DNA of 27,894 bases from a virus, in the IMG/VR virus record IMGVR_UViG_3300033153_010272, positions 1 through 27,894 of that record; one strand, given 5' to 3'. Under the pieces are notes generated by a model that was given only the letters and a program-made list of their open reading frames with translations, did not search any database and was not told the DNA's origin. This document shows, one piece after another, positions 2,772 through 15,054 of the stretch (its first letter is position 1; every line of letters starts with the position of its first letter). The position numbers and the translations under genes are program-made.

Positions 2772-3085
2772 ATGGATATTAACAATTTAGTAAAAAAAGC
2801 ACATAAAGCAGCAGTTGATAAAGGATTTTATCCAGAAGGCAAAAATAAAAACATCGGTGAGCTTTTAATGCTAGTTGTATCAGAACTGGGAGAAGCATTA
2901 GAGGCGCATAGAAATAATAATCATACTATAAAACCTGCGAATTTAATAGAATACTTTACGATTGAAAATATAACATTCGATTAGCTGATTTATGCGGATA
3001 TTTAAAATTAGATATTGAGAAACATATCAAAGCGAAACTAGAATATAATAAAACTCGGCCAGAGAAACATGGGAAGGCATATTAA
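2772..3085 (+). pseudogene. MazG-like nucleotide pyrophosphohydrolase, frame-broken
   Basis: The first frame (2772-2984, 70 aa) carries the MazG opening helices and the first metal motif, SELGEALEA. The ORF ends at a TAG at 2982-2984. A second frame from about 2975 to the TAA at 3083-3085 reads IRLADLCGYLKLDIEKHIK, then KLEYNKTRPEKHGKAY, which is the typical C-terminus of phage MazG-like proteins. The stretch between, which should hold the second metal motif (ExxD, usually in an EELADVVIRI context), is missing, so this is more than a one-base slip. As written the product would lack half of its active site. Intact relatives hydrolyse (d)NTPs to monophosphates. Its stop overlaps the next start (TAATG). 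Confidence 0.75.
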
Positions 3086-3387
3086 TGACAATACAAAAAG
3101 CTGCTGAAATTATACCTGAATTACTTATTGATCAAAAAAGATTCGATGACAGGATGCAGCTATCTCTTGATAAATGTTATGAACAAAATATACCACAAGA
3201 GGAAACTGATTTATTATTGCTGGAATGGAGGGGCGGCAAATGTCCTAACTGCGGAACTGAATTCGAAAAGGTAGAAGAGAAAAGTATTATATCAGATTAT
3301 ATTTGGTATCGGGCAAAATGCGAATGTTTATTAAAAGTTGGCGGTGAAACAAAGAAACAACAATACAGAGAAAAGAAAATGGAATGA
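3085..3387 (+). CDS. Zinc-finger N-terminal part of a DnaC-like helicase loader
   Basis: This is a 100-aa ORF with a helical N-terminus (AAEIIPELLIDQKRFDDRM) and a Cys motif CPNCGTEFE followed about 30 residues later by KCEC, a likely zinc finger. It ends at a TGA at 3385-3387. Reading on in the same frame leads straight into a Walker A ATPase domain, so it is best seen as the N-terminal domain of a DnaC/IstB-type helicase loader with a premature stop; zinc-binding N-termini are common in phage DnaC-like loaders. It could also act as a separate small protein. Confidence 0.65.
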   Translation: MTIQKAAEIIPELLIDQKRFDDRMQLSLDKCYEQNIPQEETDLLLLEWRGGKCPNCGTEFEKVEEKSIISDYIWYRAKCECLLKVGGETKKQQYREKKME

Positions 3388-3793
3388 TTTAAAGATTGGG
3401 ATTACGGAGTAAAAGATAAAACAAATGAAGCTTTTAGAAATGTATACGATATTTGCAAGAATGAAGAATATTTAAACAGTGGGATTATTTTATATGGCGA
3501 TGTCGGGACTGGTAAAACGCATTGTGCTATTTCTTTGATGTGGGAAGCAAGTGCTAAACCGCTGGCATTAAAATATATAAATATGTCAGATATAACTTCC
3601 AGATTTATTAACAAACAGGCAGGATAATCTGATTAATGAGCAGAAAATAATAATAGCTACAACAAACTTTTTGAAAGGATCGGATTTTGTTGATAAATTC
3701 GGGCAGGCTATAACCAGCCGGTTGATCTCATATTGTACAATTATTGAATTTAGCGGCGATGATTATAGAAAAAAATTAAAAAATGGAGGATAA
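3388..3793 (+). pseudogene. DnaC/IstB-like helicase loader AAA+ domain, broken
   Basis: The frame in phase with the upstream zinc-finger ORF continues after the TGA with FKDWDYGVKDKTNEAF, then IILYGDVGTGKTH (Walker A) and ends at a TAA at 3625-3627. A second frame from about 3626 to 3793 reads LINEQKIIIATTNFLKG, SRLISYCTIIEFSGDDYRKK, which is the sensor-1 and C-terminal part of DnaC-like ATPases. The Walker B segment expected between them is absent, so there is an internal deletion as well as the stop. Intact members load the replicative helicase with the organiser encoded at 1759-2586. The phage would depend on a host loader if the lesions are real. Confidence 0.75.
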
Positions 3794-3795
3794 AA

Positions 3796-4038
3796 ATGGA
3801 AACGAAAGACAAAGTTTATTGTAAAGATTGTAAATATTTAGAGGAAGGGATCGAGGATTATGAGGGTTGTAAATCTTGTCAAAATCCTGTTTGTTTTACT
3901 ACCATATATGATCCAATTGAAGGGCCGACAAAAACAAGAACATCTGATTGTAAACAAGAAAATAGAGATTGTAATTGTCAATTTTTTGAACAAAAAGAAA
4001 TAAAAACCAAAAAGAAATGGTGGCGGTTTTTTTGCTGA
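3796..4038 (+). CDS. Small Cys-rich protein
   Basis: The protein has 80 aa with many Cys residues: VYCKDCKYL near the start, CKSCQNPVC in the middle, DCNCQFF and a final FFC. The opening (VYCKDCKYLEEG) is reminiscent of short phage proteins that begin with CxxC followed by an aromatic residue. Likely zinc binding, family not recognised. GGAGGA precedes the start by a few bases and overlaps the end of the loader remnant. Confidence 0.6.
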   Translation: METKDKVYCKDCKYLEEGIEDYEGCKSCQNPVCFTTIYDPIEGPTKTRTSDCKQENRDCNCQFFEQKEIKTKKKWWRFFC

Positions 4039-4079
4039 TTACTATTATAGAAAAAACAAAAGGATAGGGGGTAGAGAAA

Positions 4080-4526
4080 ATGAAAGAATATATATTTCGG
4101 GCATGGGATAAAGATGCTGATTGTTTTGCTTATTCCGACCAAGAAAACGATTCTTATATATGGGGATTTGAAGATGGAAAACTTAAAGCATGGGTAATTG
4201 TAGAATCATTTGGGACACAAGATGAACCGGCATATCATAGCTCTGTTGAACTTGCGAAACCAGACCAATATACTAATCTTAATGATAAAGATAATATAAG
4301 ATTATATGAAAATGATATTTTGGAATATGATGGGGATAAATGTCCTCATTGCGGAAAAATATTATATGGAGATCATGATTTATATATTATCGTATGGAAT
4401 GAAAAATCTGCTAGGTTTGAATGCAGAAATTTTGATAATTTTTTATCGTCAGATATTTGGCATACAGACATGAAAAAGATTGGCAATATCTGGAAGAATC
4501 CAAAGCTATTTGAAGGTAGGGGGTAG
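4080..4526 (+). CDS. YopX family phage protein
   Basis: The protein has 148 aa. The opening KEYIFRAWDKD and the central QYTNLNDKDNIRLYENDILEYDG correspond to the YopX signature (usually FRAWD ... QYTGLKDKNGKEIYEGDI). The C-terminus IGNIWKNPKLFE fits the usual IGNIYENPELL. An extra CPHCGK inserted after the EYDGD segment suggests a zinc knuckle not found in all members. YopX proteins are widespread in phages of Firmicutes and others, with unknown function. A second YopX gene lies at 15320. The leader GATAGGGGGTAGAGAAA is close to that of the next gene. Confidence 0.8.
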   Translation: MKEYIFRAWDKDADCFAYSDQENDSYIWGFEDGKLKAWVIVESFGTQDEPAYHSSVELAKPDQYTNLNDKDNIRLYENDILEYDGDKCPHCGKILYGDHDLYIIVWNEKSARFECRNFDNFLSSDIWHTDMKKIGNIWKNPKLFEGRG

Positions 4527-6592: not shown

Positions 6593-6623
6593 AGAAGGAT
6601 ATTTGATTAGATTGGAGGTAAAA

Positions 6624-7172
6624 GTGGATTATAAATTTATGAATGTGTCTGCACCGCAGAGTAAATTGATTCTTGGAAGAGAAAAGGTAATGGCCAAACT
6701 TTTGGCTGGTGGATTTGCTTTTAAAACGGATCCATTTCAAGCATTAAAAAGATGGCTATTAACCGGCAGCATGGGCAATGCTTTTTATCAAGGCAAACAG
6801 GAAATGACAGAAGAGAATGTTAAAATATTTCTGGAATGTGCCAAAAGCGATCCTGACAAGGTTGGTGATCTTATCCTTTATGCTTCAAAAAAAGGTATTT
6901 CTGTTCATACTCCGATTTATGCCCTGGTTTGGCTATCAACAAGAGGGAAACCAGCATTTAGGAAAATATTCAATGCAGTTATCAGAACTGCTTCTCATTT
7001 ATATGAGTTTTTTTCCTATCTTAAAGGAGTGCGGGGAAAGGGCACTGTTATACATAAAGCGGTTAAGGGTTGGCTAGATAATAAATCTGTACAAGAATTA
7101 GAATATCAATTTTTAAAATATCAGAATCGTTATGGTTTTGCGGCAAGAGACATATTAAGAATTATTTATTGA
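6624..7172 (+). CDS. rsr: Ro60 (TROVE) protein, N-terminal fragment 1 of 3
   Basis: The GTG at 6624 is chosen because GGAGG at 6614-6618 stands five bases before it. The fragment covers the first half of the HEAT-repeat ring of Ro60: SAPQSKLILGREKVM, AGGFAFKTDPFQALKRWLL, GSMGNAFYQGKQEMTEENV and YQNRYGFAARDILRIIY, matching the family's TPQ..PIPGR, AGG..F, LGS.GGTYY and R.GWSHRDLLRL. Ro60 binds misfolded or structured RNA ends in its central hole and Y RNA on its outer face. The frame stops at 7170-7172 where a K-P rich linker and FKW motif are expected; about 30 residues appear to be missing before the next frame resumes. Confidence 0.85.
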   Translation: MDYKFMNVSAPQSKLILGREKVMAKLLAGGFAFKTDPFQALKRWLLTGSMGNAFYQGKQEMTEENVKIFLECAKSDPDKVGDLILYASKKGISVHTPIYALVWLSTRGKPAFRKIFNAVIRTASHLYEFFSYLKGVRGKGTVIHKAVKGWLDNKSVQELEYQFLKYQNRYGFAARDILRIIY

Positions 7173-7684
7173 GAATAAGAGCATACGAACAAATGAAAAC
7201 CGATCTTAATGAAGTCGATGTAATAAAAGCTATTAGTGGTCTCAATTTAACTCATGAAATGATACCGGCAAATATTAAAAGAACCAAGGCAATATGGGAA
7301 GCATTGTTTATTAAAATGCCAGTAGGTGCTGCTATTCGTAATTTAGGCCAATTAACTGAAAAAGGATTATTTAATAAAATAGCGAATATAGAAATATTGC
7401 GAAATAAATTAAAGAGAGAAAATTTGCAAAGGGCTTATATCCATCCTGTTGTTTTAGCATCGGCTTATTATATTTATTCTAATGGCGGGCAACTAGGAAA
7501 AACTAAACTTACATGGAAAGCTGAAGAGGCTATTTGTGATATTTTAGAAACTGCGATTGAGGATTGTTTTGATATTATAGAACCGATTAATAAAAGAATT
7601 TTGCATGGCCTAGATGCTTCTGGTTCTATGTGGTCACAAAATTTACAACCGCTTTGGCTTACTCCTGGAATTATCATAACTTAA
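7169..7684 (+). CDS. rsr: Ro60 (TROVE) protein, middle fragment 2 of 3
   Basis: The frame resumes with AYEQMKTDLNEVDVIKAISG, then LTHEMIPANIKRTKAIWEAL, MPVGAAIRNLGQLTEKGLF, AYIHPVVLASAYYIYSNGG, IEPINKRILHGLDASGSM. These match the second half of the HEAT ring (LTWEMIPT..., MPLTALLRNLGRM, IHP) and the start of the von Willebrand A domain with the MIDAS residues DASGS. After GSMW the reading runs out of family likeness and stops at 7682-7684, while the third frame already carries the continuation. A natural start for this fragment alone is not evident; it should be read as part of one interrupted gene. Confidence 0.85.
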   Translation: MRIRAYEQMKTDLNEVDVIKAISGLNLTHEMIPANIKRTKAIWEALFIKMPVGAAIRNLGQLTEKGLFNKIANIEILRNKLKRENLQRAYIHPVVLASAYYIYSNGGQLGKTKLTWKAEEAICDILETAIEDCFDIIEPINKRILHGLDASGSMWSQNLQPLWLTPGIIIT

Positions 7685-8079
7685 TTGGTTTTGATGGAAG
7701 TTTATATCCGATTTATTTAACTAAAAAAACCGCTTTCAGGAATATATTAAATCCACAATCACTGGTTTATAAAGATGCAACTCATAATGCAACTGATTGT
7801 GCGTTGCCGATAAAATATGCCATGGATACTGAACAAGAATATGATGCTATTATAATGTGGACTGATGGACAATCATGGTATGGAAAAGAGCATGTTTCGG
7901 AAGTAGCAAAAAAATATCAGAAAAAATATCCTAATTGTAAAATAATTATTAACTATTTAGTTCCTTATGGAGAAACCTTGAGTTTGTCTGATCCTGCTAA
8001 TCCGAAGATGTACGATATTATGGGATTTACAGCGGAAACGCCAAAGTTAATAAATATGATTATAAAAGAAGAAATATAA
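7630..8079 (+). CDS. rsr: Ro60 (TROVE) protein, C-terminal fragment 3 of 3
   Basis: This frame gives the rest of the vWA domain: NYHNLIGFDGSLYPI, the conserved ATHNATDCALPIKYAM, YDAIIMWTDGQSWYGKEHVS, then a parallel-sheet end (NCKIIINYLVPYGETL) and the closing MYDIMGFTAETPKLI. The Thr-Asp of TDCALP and the Asp of WTDG complete the metal site begun by DASGS in fragment 2. Several residues of the helix after GSM are missing, so this lesion too is probably more than one base. The stop codon lies in a small hairpin (8076-8092). Confidence 0.85.
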   Translation: MVTKFTTALAYSWNYHNLIGFDGSLYPIYLTKKTAFRNILNPQSLVYKDATHNATDCALPIKYAMDTEQEYDAIIMWTDGQSWYGKEHVSEVAKKYQKKYPNCKIIINYLVPYGETLSLSDPANPKMYDIMGFTAETPKLINMIIKEEI

Positions 8080-8119: not shown

Positions 8120-8659
8120 ATGAAGAGGGTTTTACTGTTTTTGATGATACTGCTATTAGCAGTAGGTATTTATGCAGTTGATGTTGGGGGTAGTACTTCC
8201 ACATCTGGGATGCAGGGAGACGAGTATCAAAAAGTTTGGTTTAACCAGGGAGCTTACCTGGAAGTCGGGCCTTTGCGGTTTGATGCAAACGGTGAATATA
8301 ACATTGATCTGGAAGCCGATGAGAAATTTTGGGAATATGATTTTGCTGCTAAGTATTCAGTAGCAGGATTCGTATTCGGTTCCAAAATATATGGAGAGAA
8401 AGATTTAGAGCTGAGAAAAAATAAAAGTTGGGTAGATTTTATCTATGAGAATTTCGGCTTTAATGTTACTACGTGTACTTTACTTGATCCCGAACAGGAA
8501 GATTGGCAGGGTGCGGAATTCTCCGCAACTTATAAACCGGATCCGTTTGAGTTTACCGTAGGCTATTTGTTGACAGATTGCGGAGCCGAGATTGCTGAGG
8601 TGGCACCGTCCGAACCGTTGAATGGCGGTGTCTATGCAAAAGTGTTAGTTAATTATTAG
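8120..8659 (+). CDS. Secreted beta-barrel-like envelope protein
   Basis: The protein has 179 aa from the ATG at 8120, placed after AGAAGAGGT; an upstream in-frame start would put a charged stretch before the signal peptide. Residues 1-19 (KRVLLFLMILLLAVGIYA) are a signal peptide. The mature part shows alternating hydrophobic strands (FDANGEYNIDLEADEKFWEY, AAKYSVAGFVFGSKIYG, EFSATYKPDPFEFTVGYLL) and ends in VYAKVLVNY with a terminal aromatic residue, as in outer-membrane barrels inserted by BAM. It is short for a full porin. It stands just before the sugar-binding protein, so a role in outer-membrane sugar entry is conceivable. No specific family recognised. Confidence 0.65.
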   Translation: MKRVLLFLMILLLAVGIYAVDVGGSTSTSGMQGDEYQKVWFNQGAYLEVGPLRFDANGEYNIDLEADEKFWEYDFAAKYSVAGFVFGSKIYGEKDLELRKNKSWVDFIYENFGFNVTTCTLLDPEQEDWQGAEFSATYKPDPFEFTVGYLLTDCGAEIAEVAPSEPLNGGVYAKVLVNY

Positions 8660-8681
8660 CAAATAGGTAGTGGAAAAAATG

Positions 8682-8713
8682 TATTCCTGGCAGATTAATA
8701 TTTGTCAGGAATA
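8682..8713 (+). terminator. Hairpin between barrel gene and transporter
   Basis: TATTCCTG 8682-8689 and CAGGAATA 8706-8713 form a perfect 8-bp stem with a 16-nt loop, followed by TTTGTAAA. It may end transcription of the barrel gene, or act with the adjacent palindrome as a control site ahead of the binding-protein gene. Confidence 0.4.
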
Positions 8714-8714
8714 T

Positions 8715-8733
8715 TTGTAAAGTGAGTTTACAA
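8715..8733. promoter_or_regulatory. Palindrome TTGTAAA-N5-TTTACAA, operator candidate
   Basis: The 7-bp arms and 5-nt spacing are the same as in the core of the palindrome at 351-369, while the spacer (GTGAG against CCGGC) differs. Two copies with conserved arms and a free centre, both in intergenic regions, fit a dimeric repressor site. This copy lies 28 bases before the binding-protein start. Confidence 0.4.
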
Positions 8734-8760
8734 TTAAATTAAAGAGAAGAGGTAAAAGAA

Positions 8761-8886
8761 TGAAAAGAATTGTTTTAGTTTTAATGGTATTTATGTTGGT
8801 TTTTTCGGTATTTGCCACAGGGAGCAATATCCAAATCGTGATTTTACAGGGTATCTATGGAAAGACAATATTATTCCTAAATTTGA
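8761..8886 (+). pseudogene. Signal peptide of the sugar-binding protein, detached by frameshift
   Basis: The ATG at 8761 follows AGAAGAGGT and starts a clear signal peptide (KRIVLVLMVFMLVFSVFATG) without a lipobox Cys. The frame then loses meaning and stops at 8884-8886. From 8823 a second frame reads EQYPNRDFTGYLWKDNIIP, and from 8882 a third reads FEEETGIKIELRKYSDAI, which together are the normal N-terminal lobe of a family 1 solute-binding protein. The second junction would be healed by one extra A in CCTAATTT; the first probably also lacks residues of the mature N-terminus. Confidence 0.75.
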
Positions 8887-10036
8887 AGAGGAAACAGGAA
8901 TTAAGATAGAATTACGGAAATATTCAGATGCTATAGACAATACTACGAAAAGTCTTGATATGGATTTAGCGAGCGGTGAACCTTCCGATGTTATCTGGAG
9001 TTATGGTGGGCGAGTCAATAAATTTGCCAATGCTGATTTTGGGGTTAATCTTTATGAGGCATTGCCGAAAGAGTTTATTGATCAATTTAAAAAGTCGGCA
9101 TTATCACAATTTGAGCGAGATGGTAAATTGTATGCTTTGCCGATGCCTGGATGGGCTGTTTGTTTAATGGCTAATAGAAATTTATTTGAACAGGCGGGGG
9201 TTGCGGATGTATTACCGGTCGACGATGATCCCGATAGATCATGGACAGTAGCGGAATTTGATCGAGCAGTTAAGGCTATTACTGCCTTGGGCGATGAGTA
9301 CTATGGTTACTATATTATTGCAAAAGAATGCGGCGGTGATTATTGGGTATTGAATATGCTGGGTGGATTTGGCGCTAATCTTTATGAAAACGGCAAGGCG
9401 ATTCTTAATACTCCCGAAGGCATAAAAGGAATGGAATATATTCATTATCTGCATGAAAATGGTTATGTACCTTATGGAGCCTCTGGACTGTATGATGGCG
9501 ATATGGCTATGTTGTTCAATTCCGGCAAATTAGGAATGCGGGGTTACGTTCCTGCTGGTATAGAGGTAGGGAAATATGCCGTAAAAGACGGAGTTGTAGA
9601 GGCGGAATTCGAATGTGTATTAATGGAATATCCGCACGTTGAAGGAGTTGATGGAGTAGCACCATGTTTCGGGCCAGATCTGGCTATGGTTATTGATAAT
9701 GGCGATCCTGTTCAGTTAGAAAAGGCATTAAAGTTTTTACAATATATAACCGGGGCCGAAGTACAGACAATTTTACAAAAAGTCTATTCAAAATTCAGTC
9801 CTTTAAAAACTGCCGGAATGCCGACAAGTTCAGGAACTATTGGCATGGCGATGAAACAGATGTCACAGATTATAAAAGATCGGGGTATTTACGACATGGG
9901 CATAGGGTTTCCGGTATATAATGAGCTGCGCCAAATTTGGTTGGCTGTACTCCAGGGCATGTTAATAAATGAGATTACACCTGCCGAAGCGGCAGCGGAA
10001 TTTGACCGTCGTGCAAATAAGCTTCTTTCAGAATAA
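8882..10036 (+). CDS. ABC sugar transporter, extracellular solute-binding protein
   Basis: This open frame holds nearly the whole mature protein (358 aa from the internal ATG at 8960). Family marks are FEEETGIKIEL, DLASGEPSDVIWSYGGRV, ALPKEFIDQFKKSALSQFER, DGKLYALPMPGWAVCLMANR, LFEQAGV with SWTVAEFDRAVKAI, MEYIHYLHENGYVP, and a C-terminal KALKFLQYITGAEVQ. It is a periplasmic binding protein of the CUT1 type (oligosaccharides or glycosides) that delivers substrate to the permeases encoded next. The ligand cannot be told from the sequence. Its 3' end overlaps the first permease gene. The signal peptide lies in another frame at 8761. Confidence 0.88.
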   Translation, partial: FEEETGIKIELRKYSDAIDNTTKSLDMDLASGEPSDVIWSYGGRVNKFANADFGVNLYEALPKEFIDQFKKSALSQFERDGKLYALPMPGWAVCLMANRNLFEQAGVADVLPVDDDPDRSWTVAEFDRAVKAITALGDEYYGYYIIAKECGGDYWVLNMLGGFGANLYENGKAILNTPEGIKGMEYIHYLHENGYVPYGASGLYDGDMAMLFNSGKLGMRGYVPAGIEVGKYAVKDGVVEAEFECVLMEYPHVEGVDGVAPCFGPDLAMVIDNGDPVQLEKALKFLQYITGAEVQTILQKVYSKFSPLKTAGMPTSSGTIGMAMKQMSQIIKDRGIYDMGIGFPVYNELRQIWLAVLQGMLINEITPAEAAAEFDRRANKLLSE

Positions 10037-10895
10037 AAAAATAAAAAACTATATGGTAGGGTTGGCGTTGATTTCGCCAGCCCTCTTCATATTTATTCTC
10101 TTCACAGCAATCCCTACAATCCAAGGTGTTGCTCTTGCTTTTTTTAAAGCTAATGCCAGAGTGAGTCGATTCATAGGATTTGATAATTTCATCTATTTGA
10201 TAAACGATGACATATTTTGGAAGTCTATGAAAACCACTATAAGCATTGTAGCTTTCAGTGTTCCCTTACTGGTGTTTGTTTCGTTTTTTGTTTCATTGAT
10301 AGCGCATGATATGTCAAGAAAAATGCAATCATTTATACGATTTGCCTATTATGTTCCGCTAATATCGGCGGGGATGATTATTTCAATTACTTGGAGCTGG
10401 ATTTTTAATCCACAGCATGGCTTGCTAAATTATATAATAGGATTAATCGGGATTGAACCAGTGATCTGGACAGGAACTATGCCAGCGGCTTTTTTTTCAA
10501 TTTGCATTGTTATGATAACTTCAGGGATGGGATTAAATGTTATTTTATATATGTCGGCTTTATCGACTATCGATACACAACTATATGATGCCGCTGAATT
10601 AGATGGTTGTAGCGATAGACAAAAAGCTCTCTATATTACAATGCCGTTAATGCTGCCGATAATAGCATTTATTTTAATCATGCAAACAATCGGAGTTATG
10701 ATGATCTGGGAGATACCATATGTATTGACAGGCGGCGGGCCATATTATGCGACAACTACATTGGTATATCAGATTTTTGTACGGGCTTTTCAAAGCGGCA
10801 AATATGGACTGGGAGCGGCAGAAAGCCTGGTGGTATTTACAATAATTATCGCATTAACCGTAATACAGAAAAAAATATTGATTGATAGGAAATAA
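10011..10895 (+). CDS. ABC sugar permease, MalF/UgpA type
   Basis: The reading frame is open from 9969, but family likeness starts with NKKIKNYMVGLALISPALF; the GTG at 10011 (or TTG at 10002) inside the end of the binding-protein gene is the likely start, giving about 294 aa. Six membrane segments can be traced, beginning with LALISPALFIFILFTAIP and ending with LVVFTIIIALTVIQ. The EAA loop that docks the ATPase is intact: AAELDGCSDRQKALYITMPL. It would form the inner-membrane channel with the permease at 11200. The gene overlaps the upstream one, implying coupled translation. Confidence 0.88.
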   Translation: MQISFFQNKKIKNYMVGLALISPALFIFILFTAIPTIQGVALAFFKANARVSRFIGFDNFIYLINDDIFWKSMKTTISIVAFSVPLLVFVSFFVSLIAHDMSRKMQSFIRFAYYVPLISAGMIISITWSWIFNPQHGLLNYIIGLIGIEPVIWTGTMPAAFFSICIVMITSGMGLNVILYMSALSTIDTQLYDAAELDGCSDRQKALYITMPLMLPIIAFILIMQTIGVMMIWEIPYVLTGGGPYYATTTLVYQIFVRAFQSGKYGLGAAESLVVFTIIIALTVIQKKILIDRK

Positions 10896-11022
10896 ATATG
10901 ATTTATATTGTCCTAATTGCGGTATAAAATATTTAAAGAAAATGAATCAAAGGGAATATGAAAACTTTCTTGAGCAAGAAAAAGAAGAAACAATTTTTAC
11001 GGGAGGCACATTATGGGAATAA
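10882..11022 (+). CDS. Short zinc-ribbon ORF between the permeases, maybe 5'-truncated
   Basis: Frame 10882-11022 reads NKYDLYCPNCGIKYLKKMNQ and then an acidic helix ending TGGTLWE. LYCPNCG looks like a phage zinc-ribbon start. The only start is a TTG inside the permease gene without a ribosome site, so it may have lost its 5' end when the permease gene was joined here. It overlaps the start of the 67-aa protein at 11013. Expression is doubtful. Confidence 0.35.
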   Translation: MIGNKYDLYCPNCGIKYLKKMNQREYENFLEQEKEETIFTGGTLWE

Positions 11023-11216
11023 TACCAGGTATTATATTAGGGGCGGGATGTGTGTTTACGTTATTGTCATATTATTATTTTATTTCAGATTGGTATAATA
11101 AAAGAATAAAAGATAAATTTGATAAAATAGTCGGTTTTTATCCTATGGCATATATGATGATTTTAGCATCCAAACAGTTTCACAGTAGAAGAAAAATAGA
11201 TGTTAAAAACAATTAA
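11013..11216 (+). CDS. Small single-pass membrane protein
   Basis: The protein has 67 aa, with ACGGGAGGCAC just upstream of the ATG at 11013. Residues 2-24 (GIIPGIILGAGCVFTLLSYY) form one membrane segment; the rest is basic and could lie in the cytoplasm. No family is recognised. It sits between two permease genes that are normally adjacent, and overlaps the second by 17 bases. Confidence 0.6.
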   Translation: MGIIPGIILGAGCVFTLLSYYYFISDWYNKRIKDKFDKIVGFYPMAYMMILASKQFHSRRKIDVKNN

Positions 11217-12027
11217 TCAAACAATAATAATATTATTAGCACTAATTCTTTTATTTCCAGTCATATGGATGATAAGCGGCTCTTTTAAATCAGCATTGGG
11301 CGCCGTTGCTATGCCGCCGACATTACTACCAAGAAAGCCGACAATCAATAACTATATAACTTTGTTTAAATGGCCGGTTTTAAGATGGACTTTTAATAGT
11401 TTTATTGTATCGGCTGCCGGGGCTTTCGGAGCAACATCATTTAGTATATTAAGTGGATATGCTTTCGCAAAAAAACAAATACCTTACAAAGAAACTATTT
11501 TTATGTTATTTCTAGCTTCCTTAATGGTGCCAATGCAGAGTAAAATGATACCGTTATTTCTAATGATTAAAAAAATGGGACTATATGATTCTTTAGCAGG
11601 AATGGTAATACCAGGATTAGCTTCACCAGTTTATATATTTTTTTATCGGCAATTTTTAAAATCATTTCCGAATGAATTATTAGATATTGCAGAGATCGAT
11701 GGAGCCGGAGAAATAACAAAATTGATAAAAATAGTAATACCTTTATCGATGGCTCCGGCAGCGGCTATGTTTTTAATCGGATTTATAGGCGGATGGAATG
11801 CCTTAATGTGGCAGCTAATAATAGCACAATCAGAAAATATATATACTTTACCGGTCGGCATATTGAAAATAGTAACCAGTGCAGAGATACTTTTTAAATC
11901 CGGGCTTGAGCATTATGGATTGAAAAATGCTTGTGCTACATTCGCTTTTTTACCGCCATTAGTAATATTTGCAATGTTCCAAAAGCATTTTTTAAAGAAT
12001 ATTTTTTCGGGAGTAACAAAGGGGTAA
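11200..12027 (+). CDS. ABC sugar permease, MalG/UgpE type
   Basis: The protein has 275 aa, the usual length for MalG-like permeases. Six membrane segments start with IIILLALILLFPVIWMISG. Hallmarks are SGSFKSALGAVAMPPTLLP, the NYITLF linker, NSFIVSAAGAFGATSFSILS, GYAFAKKQIPYKETIF, and the EAA loop DIAEIDGAGEITKLIKIVIP. It pairs with the MalF-like permease at 10011. No ABC ATPase gene is found anywhere in the window, as is common for CUT1 systems that share one MsmK/UgpC-like ATPase of the cell. It is followed two bases later by a small membrane protein gene. Confidence 0.9.
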   Translation: MLKTINQTIIILLALILLFPVIWMISGSFKSALGAVAMPPTLLPRKPTINNYITLFKWPVLRWTFNSFIVSAAGAFGATSFSILSGYAFAKKQIPYKETIFMLFLASLMVPMQSKMIPLFLMIKKMGLYDSLAGMVIPGLASPVYIFFYRQFLKSFPNELLDIAEIDGAGEITKLIKIVIPLSMAPAAAMFLIGFIGGWNALMWQLIIAQSENIYTLPVGILKIVTSAEILFKSGLEHYGLKNACATFAFLPPLVIFAMFQKHFLKNIFSGVTKG

Positions 12028-12029
12028 TT

Positions 12030-12293
12030 ATGACAGATAAAAAAAATAAAATATCATTAGCTTACCCATTAGTCGCTTGGATATTGTTAGTGCCGATGCC
12101 GATAGCACTGCCATTTATTCTAATTATTGCGATAACAATGATTTTTGTGTGTTTAATAATAACGATACCAAAAGCGATTATAATATTAACAAAAGACGGA
12201 GTTGATTTTATAATAGAATATATAAATTTTAGAAAACAGAGACACAAAATATTAAAAGATTTTGAAAAAAACAAGGGAATAAACAATGGATAA
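12030..12293 (+). CDS. Small membrane protein A of a tandem paralogous pair
   Basis: The protein has 87 aa from the ATG at 12030; the longer open frame upstream lies inside the permease gene. GGGG stands five bases before the start. Two adjacent membrane segments (about residues 12-50) are followed by a cytoplasmic helix ending FRKQRHKILKDFEKNKG. The next protein has the same layout and the same end motif, so the two are paralogues. Function unknown; they may be transporter accessory or phage superinfection or envelope proteins. Confidence 0.65.
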   Translation: MTDKKNKISLAYPLVAWILLVPMPIALPFILIIAITMIFVCLIITIPKAIIILTKDGVDFIIEYINFRKQRHKILKDFEKNKGINNG

Positions 12294-12531
12294 TGAAGAT
12301 AAAAAATTATCTAAAACAGAAGAGATAATAGCCTTTATAATATTATCGCCGTTTTTATTTGTGGGGATGTTTGCGATAGCAATAGGTTTTTTGGCAGTTT
12401 TAATTATGGCAATACCATTTTATTTAATAAAACTGATAATAACTGGTGGAGGTGTTTTAAAAGAATATTTAAACTATAAAAAGCAAGTGCGGAAAATATT
12501 AAAAGATTTTGCAGAGGGGAGAAAGAAATGA
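12286..12531 (+). CDS. Small membrane protein B of a tandem paralogous pair
   Basis: The protein has 81 aa and overlaps protein A by eight bases. A charged N-terminus (DNEDKKLSKTEEI) leads into two membrane segments (about residues 13-51) and a cytoplasmic tail YLNYKKQVRKILKDFAEGRK. The tail matches protein A (EYINFRKQRHKILKDFE) in spacing and sequence. It overlaps the next gene by ATGA, linking this pair to the nucleotidyltransferases. Confidence 0.65.
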   Translation: MDNEDKKLSKTEEIIAFIILSPFLFVGMFAIAIGFLAVLIMAIPFYLIKLIITGGGVLKEYLNYKKQVRKILKDFAEGRKK

Positions 12532-13205
12532 GAATAGGAGCTGTAGTATTAGCAAGGTCTAATTATGGTCGATGGCCGGATAAGATTAAAGCCAAACTGG
12601 GAGGAGTACCAATTATTGAAAGAGTGATTGAAAGATTGGTAAAACTAAAGGGCCTTGATGAAATAATTTTATCAACTACTTATTATCCAGAAGACAAATG
12701 GTTGATGAATCTTGCGGGGCGATATGGAATTCAATATATTACGGGCCCGCCGGATGATCGAGGATTAAGATATTACGAAGCTGTTGTGAAATATGATCTT
12801 GATTATTTTATTCCGATGCCTGCTAATTGGCCATTATTTGAGATAAAAATAATGAACGAAGTGATTCGAGAAATAAGAAAAAAACCAGGGTATGCATATT
12901 ATAGATATGCCTATGTTCATTCGGAGGGCATTATGCATTCTATACCTTCTAGGGAAATAATAGAAGAATATAAAAAGACTGGAACCGATCAAGAACTATG
13001 GTGGCAATCCAAACAATCCAAAAAAGATGGTTTTATTCTGCATGATTGGAAGGAACCTAATTTACGAAATAAATACTTAATAGATTTGAATATCGCTTAT
13101 CCTTTGCATGTTGCAATATTAAATAAAGTAATTGAATATATCGGCCATTATCCAGAAAAATATGAGGAAATAGAAAAAGCATTTATGGAGATGGAAAAAT
13201 TATGA
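12528..13205 (+). CDS. SpsF/NeuA-like nucleotidyltransferase, probably degenerate active site
   Basis: The protein has 225 aa with the fold signature of CMP-sugar synthetases and SpsF-like cytidylyltransferases: VVLARSNYGRWPDKIKAKLG then GVPIIERVIERLVKLKGLDE, IILSTTYYPEDKWL, YGIQYITGPPDDRGLRYYEA. Key acidic residues seen in the paralogue next door are absent: PMPANWPLFE stands where SGDSPFFD is expected, and LNIAYPLHV replaces IDIDYPLEM. It may have lost catalysis and serve as partner subunit, or use another substrate. It overlaps the paralogue by ATGA. Confidence 0.75.
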   Translation: MRIGAVVLARSNYGRWPDKIKAKLGGVPIIERVIERLVKLKGLDEIILSTTYYPEDKWLMNLAGRYGIQYITGPPDDRGLRYYEAVVKYDLDYFIPMPANWPLFEIKIMNEVIREIRKKPGYAYYRYAYVHSEGIMHSIPSREIIEEYKKTGTDQELWWQSKQSKKDGFILHDWKEPNLRNKYLIDLNIAYPLHVAILNKVIEYIGHYPEKYEEIEKAFMEMEKL

Positions 13206-13915
13206 AATTATTTGCATTAATAACAGCACGTTGTTCTTCAGAAAGATTTCCGAATAAGGTTATTTCCATGTTGGGCGGAAAACCGATGTTGGAACAAATA
13301 ATTGTAAAGTGCAAAAATCTTAAAAATCTTGATGGGATAGTTGTGTCAACCTCTTATTTAACTTCAGATGATGTCATTCAAAATATTTGTGATGATAATC
13401 AAGTCGAATGTTACCGGGGTGATGTTCACAATTTGGCAAGTAGACATTTGGAAACTTGGAATGAATATGGCATTACCCATGCTTTAACAGTTTCGGGAGA
13501 TAGCCCTTTTTTTGATTTGGAAATAGCACAAAGACTTATTGATGCAATGAGGAGAGAACCGGACTATTGGACTTATGGTAGTTATAGTCCTTGGGGATCA
13601 CCAATAAGCGGGCATAATACTGGCGGTATAAAAAAAATATATATGGAATCACAAATAGCGGCTATGAAAAAATGTTCCGATCCAGCAAAAATGGAAGAAC
13701 AATATTGGTGTTGCTATGTGCTTAAGGAAGGTGATCCATTAATCAAATTGGTTGATTGTAGTGATATTATGCCGCCGGGAAAAACAGCAATTAAGATTGA
13801 CATTGATTATCCGCTCGAAATGGCAATAATGAATATGGTAATCGATTACTTAGGGTTTTTCCCAGAGAGATATTCCGATATTGAAAGAGCTTACAAAGAG
13901 ATAATTGAAATATGA
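13202..13915 (+). CDS. SpsF/NeuA-like cytidylyltransferase
   Basis: The protein has 237 aa. ALITARCSSERFPNKVISML with GGKPMLEQIIVKC is the nucleotide-binding loop of the family (AR..SSRLPGKVL). VVSTSYLTSDDVI, CYRGDVHNLASRHLE, LTVSGDSPFFDLEIA and KIDIDYPLEMAIMN match the later motifs, with the acidic residues for metal and sugar binding in place. It probably activates an acidic sugar or sugar-like acid with CTP, although the acceptor is unknown. Its neighbours (sugar transporter, hydrolase-like protein) suggest modification of a surface glycan of the host or virion. Confidence 0.8.
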   Translation: MKLFALITARCSSERFPNKVISMLGGKPMLEQIIVKCKNLKNLDGIVVSTSYLTSDDVIQNICDDNQVECYRGDVHNLASRHLETWNEYGITHALTVSGDSPFFDLEIAQRLIDAMRREPDYWTYGSYSPWGSPISGHNTGGIKKIYMESQIAAMKKCSDPAKMEEQYWCCYVLKEGDPLIKLVDCSDIMPPGKTAIKIDIDYPLEMAIMNMVIDYLGFFPERYSDIERAYKEIIEI

Positions 13916-15054
13916 ATATAGTAAATGTATCTTGGGGGGATCATCGCACTTATGGAGGAAATGGAGATGGACAATTAATTACCCTAGATGCTATTGAGCA
14001 GAGAATGGCAATTTGGAAAGAAAGACTGAATGCTGATAAAATATTTTGGCGGGGAACAAGAAAAGCGGAAAACAAATATTTTAATTCAATCTATAATATA
14101 ATCCGTAAAAAGAAAAAAGCCATTCCTATAGATTGGGAAGACCATGAAATACCGGCAATAGCTCATAGGGTGGGAATGAAAATCTATTTGTATGTCCACC
14201 TGTTTGACGAAGGTTGGCCATTGCCGCCGTTAAAAGAACGGAAAGTCAGTTATCATTCTGCTGATACAGCACAATATAATACTCGTATGAGTAGATTCTC
14301 TTATGAACATCCTGAATATGCCAGGGTAGATAGAAGCGGAACGAAAAGACAGTGGGGTGTTTTAAGTTTATCTTATCCGGAAGTCCGCAAATATTTCAGA
14401 GAATATTTTTTAAGCTCAATAGAAAATACGGATTTTGATGGATTGTTTATCTGTTTAAGATCGCAATCAAAACCGGCCGAATTTGCAGATCAGTTTGGAT
14501 TTAATGAGCCAGTAAGAAAAGAATATTATGAGCTTTACGGTAAAGATATCTATATTGACGATTTTGATTTGGTTAGTTGGCGCCGTCTGCTTGGCTCATA
14601 TTTAACCAAATTTATCAAAGAAATAAGACCAGAGCTTAATAAAGCAAATAAATCTTTAGCGATTGGTATTCCTACTGGTGAGATATTGGGGCCGCCAATA
14701 GGTAATACGAAATTAGATTGGCGAAAATGGATAAAGGAAGATTTGGTTGATGATCTAATAATAAATCAAAATTCAATTTATTGTCCTTCTATGTTAAATA
14801 GATTATGGCCGATGCATACTGGATATGGCTATATTGAGAATTATACAACAGGACGTCGTCTGCCAGAATTAAATGATGATATTGAATATGGTTATCTACC
14901 ATGTATAAAAAAAACGTCAACTAAATTATATGTGAGTACACAATGGGATTCTGTACAGCCACATAAAGGAAGAGAATTAAAGCAATCTGATGATTATGGT
15001 TTAGTATACGGTTCTTTTGAATTTGAGAATCCAGGATATAAAGCGAAGGAATAA
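13912..15054 (+). CDS. Glycoside-hydrolase-like TIM-barrel protein
   Basis: The protein has 380 aa and no signal peptide. The sequence follows the pattern of uncharacterised glycosyl-hydrolase-like (GHL10 or alpha-amylase-like) barrels: an opening with NADKIFWRGT, then GMKIYLYVHLFDEGWPLPP, YEHPEYARVDRSGTKRQWG, LSLSYPEVRKYFREYFLSSI, DFDGLFICLRSQSKPAEFAD, QFGFNEPVRKEYYELYGKDI and DFDLVSWRRLLGSYLTKFIK. The set HPEY / SYPEVR / FGFNEPV..EY...YG is typical of such proteins in polysaccharide-using bacteria. Catalytic residues cannot be named with confidence. It overlaps the cytidylyltransferase by ATGA and so belongs to the same cargo operon. A role in processing imported glycans is inference. Confidence 0.65.
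   Translation: MNIVNVSWGDHRTYGGNGDGQLITLDAIEQRMAIWKERLNADKIFWRGTRKAENKYFNSIYNIIRKKKKAIPIDWEDHEIPAIAHRVGMKIYLYVHLFDEGWPLPPLKERKVSYHSADTAQYNTRMSRFSYEHPEYARVDRSGTKRQWGVLSLSYPEVRKYFREYFLSSIENTDFDGLFICLRSQSKPAEFADQFGFNEPVRKEYYELYGKDIYIDDFDLVSWRRLLGSYLTKFIKEIRPELNKANKSLAIGIPTGEILGPPIGNTKLDWRKWIKEDLVDDLIINQNSIYCPSMLNRLWPMHTGYGYIENYTTGRRLPELNDDIEYGYLPCIKKTSTKLYVSTQWDSVQPHKGRELKQSDDYGLVYGSFEFENPGYKAKE

Follow-up and report, generated by a model that had tools for sequence, protein, structure and literature searches.

The importer block and its neighbourhood

The stretch of DNA analysed here (the window) makes up the whole of IMG/VR record IMGVR_UViG_3300033153_010272 and is 27,894 bases long. It encodes a sugar-type solute-binding protein (SBP) and two permeases of the MalF and MalG kinds, accompanied by a secreted protein and small membrane proteins. 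The block extends beyond position 12531 through two cytidylyltransferase-like genes and a GHL10-like gene (12528-15054). The features are as follows.

6603-8079 (minus strand in the intact copy of contig G001, described below, at L028:12723-14321): TROVE plus Ro60 vWA-domain protein; three ORFs in the window
8120..8659, plus strand: secreted protein of 179 aa, with signal peptide MKRVLLFLMILLLAVGIYA, a beta-rich look and a C-terminal Tyr
8760..10036, plus strand: sugar-type solute-binding protein (SBP_bac_1), its frame broken in the window by a 55-bp deletion after 8821
10030..10100, plus strand: RNA hairpin at the SBP/MalF junction (-24.7 kcal/mol, z = -6.0), covering the likely MalF start codon
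10053..10895, plus strand: MalF/UgpA-like permease, open from 9969 with an uncertain start; about six transmembrane segments, EAA loop YDAAELDGCSDRQKALYITMP
11013..11216, plus strand: small membrane protein of 67 aa with an N-terminal hydrophobic stretch
11200..12027, plus strand: MalG/UgpE-like permease (BPD_transp_1), EAA loop LDIAEIDGAGEITKLIKIVIP
12030..12293, plus strand: small membrane protein with a hydrophobic segment
12286..12531, plus strand: small membrane protein, in layout resembling its upstream neighbour
12528..13205, plus strand: cytidylyltransferase-like protein (KdsB/SpsF-like); CTP_transf_3 1.3e-9 (Pfam), KdsB-type 8.7e-9 (NCBIfam)
13202..13915, plus strand: second cytidylyltransferase-like protein; CTP_transf_3 9.7e-19 (Pfam), cytidylyltransferase 6oew in the PDB 4.2e-10
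13912..15054, plus strand: GHL10-like protein without signal peptide; weak match to PF02638 (1.3e-5, below cut-off)

To the left of the block, profile searches identified genes for a ParB-like protein, a DnaD-like replisome organizer and TROVE/Ro60; to its right lie genes for a DNA methyltransferase, TerS, TerL, portal, head morphogenesis and capsid proteins. Phage genes are thus found on both sides, which is the genomic location asked of auxiliary metabolic genes. An earlier note on this DNA had placed importer genes between early and packaging genes on a single strand, and both the Pfam matches and the flanking phage genes bear this out. The transporter genes use codons much as the other phage genes do (z -0.5 to +1.3). 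Among the matches listed for TerL in phage records, none reaches 31% identity, and the portal protein has no relatives in these records. The TROVE/Ro60 gene stands directly upstream of the transporter block. A search with Rfam gave no match, and no Rfam RNA was found near this gene; matches in a promoter scan were at chance level.

A circular genome and a probably faulty record

The whole window is matched by a contig of 58,011 bp from another record (IMGVR 3300033141_002284, here G001), which carries a 50-bp direct terminal repeat. In the contig alignment the window runs across both ends of G001; this overlap and the terminal repeat together close G001 to a circle of 57,961 bp. The window lacks 12 pieces of 10-113 bp that G001 has; apart from these deletions and one 17-bp patch (11083-11099), the two sequences are identical. 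The patch holds the only four substitutions between them, at each of which the window has T and G001 has G.

The deletions lie at 2974, 3385, 3625, 6094, 7165, 7675, 8821, 18737, 20399, 21999, 23604 and 25738. They are private to the window record and cut the TROVE gene into three ORFs and TerL into two, while the binding protein is frameshifted after 8821; the G001 copies are intact at 532, 518 and 443 aa, respectively. Because many of the deletions are not multiples of three and several strike essential genes such as TerL, they are most likely assembly faults. Breaking TROVE, SBP, TerL and other genes, they would mislead gene calling on the window record. Decay of the binding protein was considered and rejected, the break in its frame being one of these 12 private deletions.

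A second phage and the age of the block

When a viral contig carries transporter genes, host contamination is a common suspicion. Are those described here phage genes, or has host DNA been joined to a phage contig? The second contig that carries the block, G002 (IMGVR_UViG_3300028610_001021, 25,730 bp), comes from a different metagenome than G001. As in G001, its genes run in the order secreted protein, SBP, MalF, MalG, two cytidylyltransferases, GHL10-like protein, methyltransferase, TerS, TerL, portal and capsid. The locus L035 confirms this order from the second cytidylyltransferase to TerL. The DNA identity between G001 and G002 is about 72-74% in the structural genes and 82-87% in the transporter genes. 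In IMG/VR only these two contigs were found to carry the importer block, by pattern-based searches whose reach is limited to close relatives; the block is thus known from two phage lineages only.

Between G001 and G002, 26 orthologous gene pairs were compared; with two sequences and saturated dS, the dN/dS ratios are approximate and the ranking rests on nonsynonymous divergence (pN). The three lowest values of the 26 belong to MalG (0.028), SBP (0.067) and MalF (0.084). The next is 0.113, and TerL (0.126), portal (0.165) and capsid (0.182) are higher still. Under random ranking, three named genes would take the top three of 26 places with a chance of 1 in 2600. The approximate dN/dS is 0.03-0.07 for the three transporter genes, 0.10 for TerL and 0.12 for capsid. 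Since dS is as high in the transporter genes as in the others, their low nonsynonymous divergence indicates that they have diverged along with the phages and have been kept functional, which points to selective maintenance in the phages.

The idea that host DNA was misjoined into a phage contig, or that the genes are decaying cargo, draws on the 12 internal deletions of the window, one of which breaks SBP. However, three contigs from separate records agree and one of them is circular, both of the diverged phages have unbroken and strongly conserved copies of the genes, and codon usage is phage-like. The presence of the same genes in the same order in G002 excludes a misjoin, and misjoin or contamination was rejected on contig agreement, the second phage and selection; together with decay it is very improbable. 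The earlier note had asked for a search for a chimeric junction, and none was found. It had also held that the same locus in bacteria without phage genes would speak against its reading; no close bacterial copy came to light, the best cellular permease found being about 42% identical. Judged by these sequence comparisons, the transporter genes are old, functional phage genes and not host contamination. The circular genome, the second diverged phage and the signature of selection suggest that this phage line has long kept a sugar-type importer, and under tighter constraint than its terminase and capsid.

The note's mention of a lysogen is unsupported: no tyrosine integrase (PF00589, the type searched for) was found in G001 or G002, and G001 is almost wholly one-directional.

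The binding protein and the permeases

The ORF at 8960-10036 matches SBP_bac_1 (1.7e-16, Pfam), and the intact copy in G001 places the true start at 8760, correcting the first reading of this frame. The 443-aa protein of G001 has a signal peptide without a lipobox Cys. Because this Cys is lacking, a diderm host seems probable, and the protein fits a soluble periplasmic one. Its leader, FAxGQxE, presumably resembles those of spirochaete binding proteins. The signal peptide is intact in both G001 and G002, so that both phages encode a family-1 SBP with an export signal, as CUT1 importers have. The G002 protein is 87.6% identical (dN/dS 0.051). Sugar-binding proteins are matched in the PDB (up to 1.4e-8). 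The known relatives are distant, at about 25-30% identity, too far to give a substrate, and no SBP relative was found in the 50,697 phage records searched.

Both permease ORFs match BPD_transp_1 in Pfam (9969-10895 at 9.9e-7; 11200-12027 at 3.4e-13). The first is nearest to UgpA/GlcT/MalF (UgpA 2.5e-27) and the second to UgpE/GlcU/MalG (UgpE 1.7e-37); all NCBIfam scores are below the equivalog cut-offs, and the permeases are therefore described as CUT1-like without a named substrate. In the PDB, the MalG-like protein matches SugB (1.1e-19). Between the two phages the MalF-like permease has a dN/dS of 0.058-0.066, and the MalG-like permease is 94.9% identical with a dN/dS of 0.032. Two different permeases of this family, each with an EAA loop that can be read directly from the protein, are characteristic of CUT1 systems; the EAA loop is the docking site for the ATPase.

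The closest cellular relative found is a MalG about 42% identical, which lies in an SBP-MalF-MalG cluster; no ATPase was found within the 16 kb examined around it, and a likely glycosidase adjoins. Among the matches listed in phage records, those to MalF and MalG are below 36% and are mostly unannotated induced-prophage or faecal fragments resembling host DNA, with two Salmonella host scaffolds.

The MalF-like ORF has no good start. Its likely start is ATG 10053, which lies within the strong hairpin at the junction; none of 200 shuffled sequences was as stable as the hairpin. The start is buried in this way and no clear ribosome site precedes MalF in G001; both features count against a functional importer. 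In bacterial sugar operons, intercistronic hairpins raise the output of the binding protein over that of the permeases, and by analogy the junction hairpin might lift SBP output above permease output. Between MalF and MalG, G002 carries a small gene for a CxxC-type protein of 78 aa (L003:5307-5543), which appears truncated in the window (10896-11013) and in G001.

The secreted protein is encoded from ATG 8120 with ribosome site AGAGAAGAGG. It is 78.5% identical in G002 (dN/dS 0.083), had no match in family profile searches and is modelled by AF2 with a pLDDT of 32, too low to confirm a barrel. Outer-membrane barrels often end in Tyr, and the protein is a possible outer-membrane protein; the signal peptide and this Tyr are the features that would suit a transmembrane beta-barrel. 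The small membrane protein at 12286..12531 is 50.6% identical in G002 (dN/dS 0.44).

What could power the importer?

The earlier note had described an importer without an ATPase, and this holds for the window and for the closed genome alike: ABC_tran (PF00005) was found in neither of them nor in G002, whereas all 14 control genomes were positive. A Walker A motif occurs just once, in a DnaC-like protein. A CUT1 system includes a cognate MalK-type ATPase, which is lacking here, and the block is accordingly classed as an incomplete, CUT1-like importer. Thus, of the claim that a full CUT1 importer travels as phage cargo, the cargo part stands, since a CUT1-like importer lies in a true phage genome, with a second phage and purifying selection behind it; the word 'full' does not, as the ATPase is missing. 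Many bacterial CUT1 clusters also have no ATPase gene (PMC7658222). Bacterial sugar importers of this kind share one ATPase, and such ATPases are exchangeable between species (PMC7658222).

Because no ABC ATPase was found, the block is best explained by the borrowing of a shared ATPase from the host. The favoured reading, with a probability of roughly 0.68, is that the block has long resided in the phage and encodes a CUT1-like carbohydrate importer which, lacking an ATPase of its own, would be powered by a shared host ATPase during infection; we infer transport activity and ATPase borrowing from the sequences. The binding protein would be secreted into the periplasm of a diderm host and the two permeases would form a channel in the inner membrane. 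Docked on the intact EAA loops, a shared ATPase from the host, of the MsmK/MsmX/UgpC/MalK kind, would drive the uptake of a sugar or a similar molecule in the infected cell. The proposed purpose would be to bring in food or building blocks while the infection lasts; the gain might be carbon, energy or a glycan precursor, and the earlier note had also named a change of the surface. A more tentative extension, held at somewhat less than even odds, is that the line of uptake across the envelope is all viral (a secreted, possibly outer-membrane protein, the SBP and the channel), with the host giving only the ATPase.

Might the importer instead feed the synthesis of glycans or nucleotide sugars, the cytidylyltransferase-like proteins activating a sugar that decorates the virion or the host surface? 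Two CTP_transf_3 proteins and the GHL10-like protein follow the permeases in both phages, and an MptE/Maf-like protein (PF01973) is encoded near the tail genes of G001. However, the cytidylyltransferase and GHL10-like genes are changing far more rapidly than those of the importer (dN/dS 0.14-0.21 versus 0.03-0.07), so that they need not belong to one pathway with it, and a complete nucleotide-sugar pathway is not seen. CUT1 substrates are, moreover, usually catabolic, and such a role is unlikely. Rather less likely still, the permeases or the secreted protein could act as decoys that compete for the host ATPase or mask a receptor, blocking host transport or superinfection and importing nothing. 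The missing ATPase suits a competitor as well as an importer, and small membrane proteins and a secreted protein stand alongside; yet a decoy would need no binding protein conserved about as strongly as the permeases (dN/dS 0.05).

Comparison with known systems

Bacterial CUT1 importers with a shared ATPase, such as AraNPQ and GanSPQ with MsmX or those of S. pneumoniae with MsmK, resemble the phage block in the order SBP-MalF-MalG, in their EAA loops and in having no ATPase gene in the cluster. The present block differs in being carried by a phage and in the distance of the closest cellular permease found (about 42% identity).

Precedents for viral transport genes are known from the open-licence literature, from which this comparison is drawn. 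The PstS of cyanophages is likewise a phage-supplied part of an ABC importer that relies on host parts (PMC3429862). It is, however, a phosphate-binding protein, whereas the present block has a sugar-type SBP and both channel proteins, so that only the ATPase is left to the host. Other transporter genes in viral genomes include the sodium/glucose cotransporters of phages (Greiner et al. 2018, PMC6163359). ABC transporters appear in the same survey for mimiviruses, related giant viruses and entomopoxviruses alone, and for no phage (PMC6163359). If the more tentative extension, in which the line of uptake is all viral, is true, this would be a phage ABC importer of which all substrate-specific parts are viral, and one host ATPase would be redirected to a nutrient chosen by the virus. 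A direct test becomes possible of whether phages borrow a shared host ATPase to steer nutrient import.

Accessory genes and a TIGR-TasH locus

The GHL10-like protein, which has no relative in the PDB, is a possible cytosolic glycosidase. The MptE/Maf-like protein lies among the tail genes of G001 (L027:7479-8636, minus strand) and could be a sugar transferase linked to the cytidylyltransferases.

The G002 phage carries, between its SBP and MalF genes, one further feature:

L003:2997-4425: TIGR-TasH locus, with the TasH ORF at 3306-4277 and arrays at 2997-3252 and 4278-4425

The protein is of the HNH-Nop type and matches the solved TasH in the PDB (1.4e-81); the NCBIfam score (1e-21) is below cut-off. 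It has an N-terminal HNH domain and a Nop domain and is flanked on both sides by arrays of 36-nt dual repeats, the features by which TIGR-Tas systems are recognised. The same architecture has been described for TIGR-TasH (PMC12045711). For the spacers, an exact paired target was found neither in G001 nor elsewhere in G002. The locus occupies the same SBP/MalF junction at which the hairpin lies in the window and in G001.
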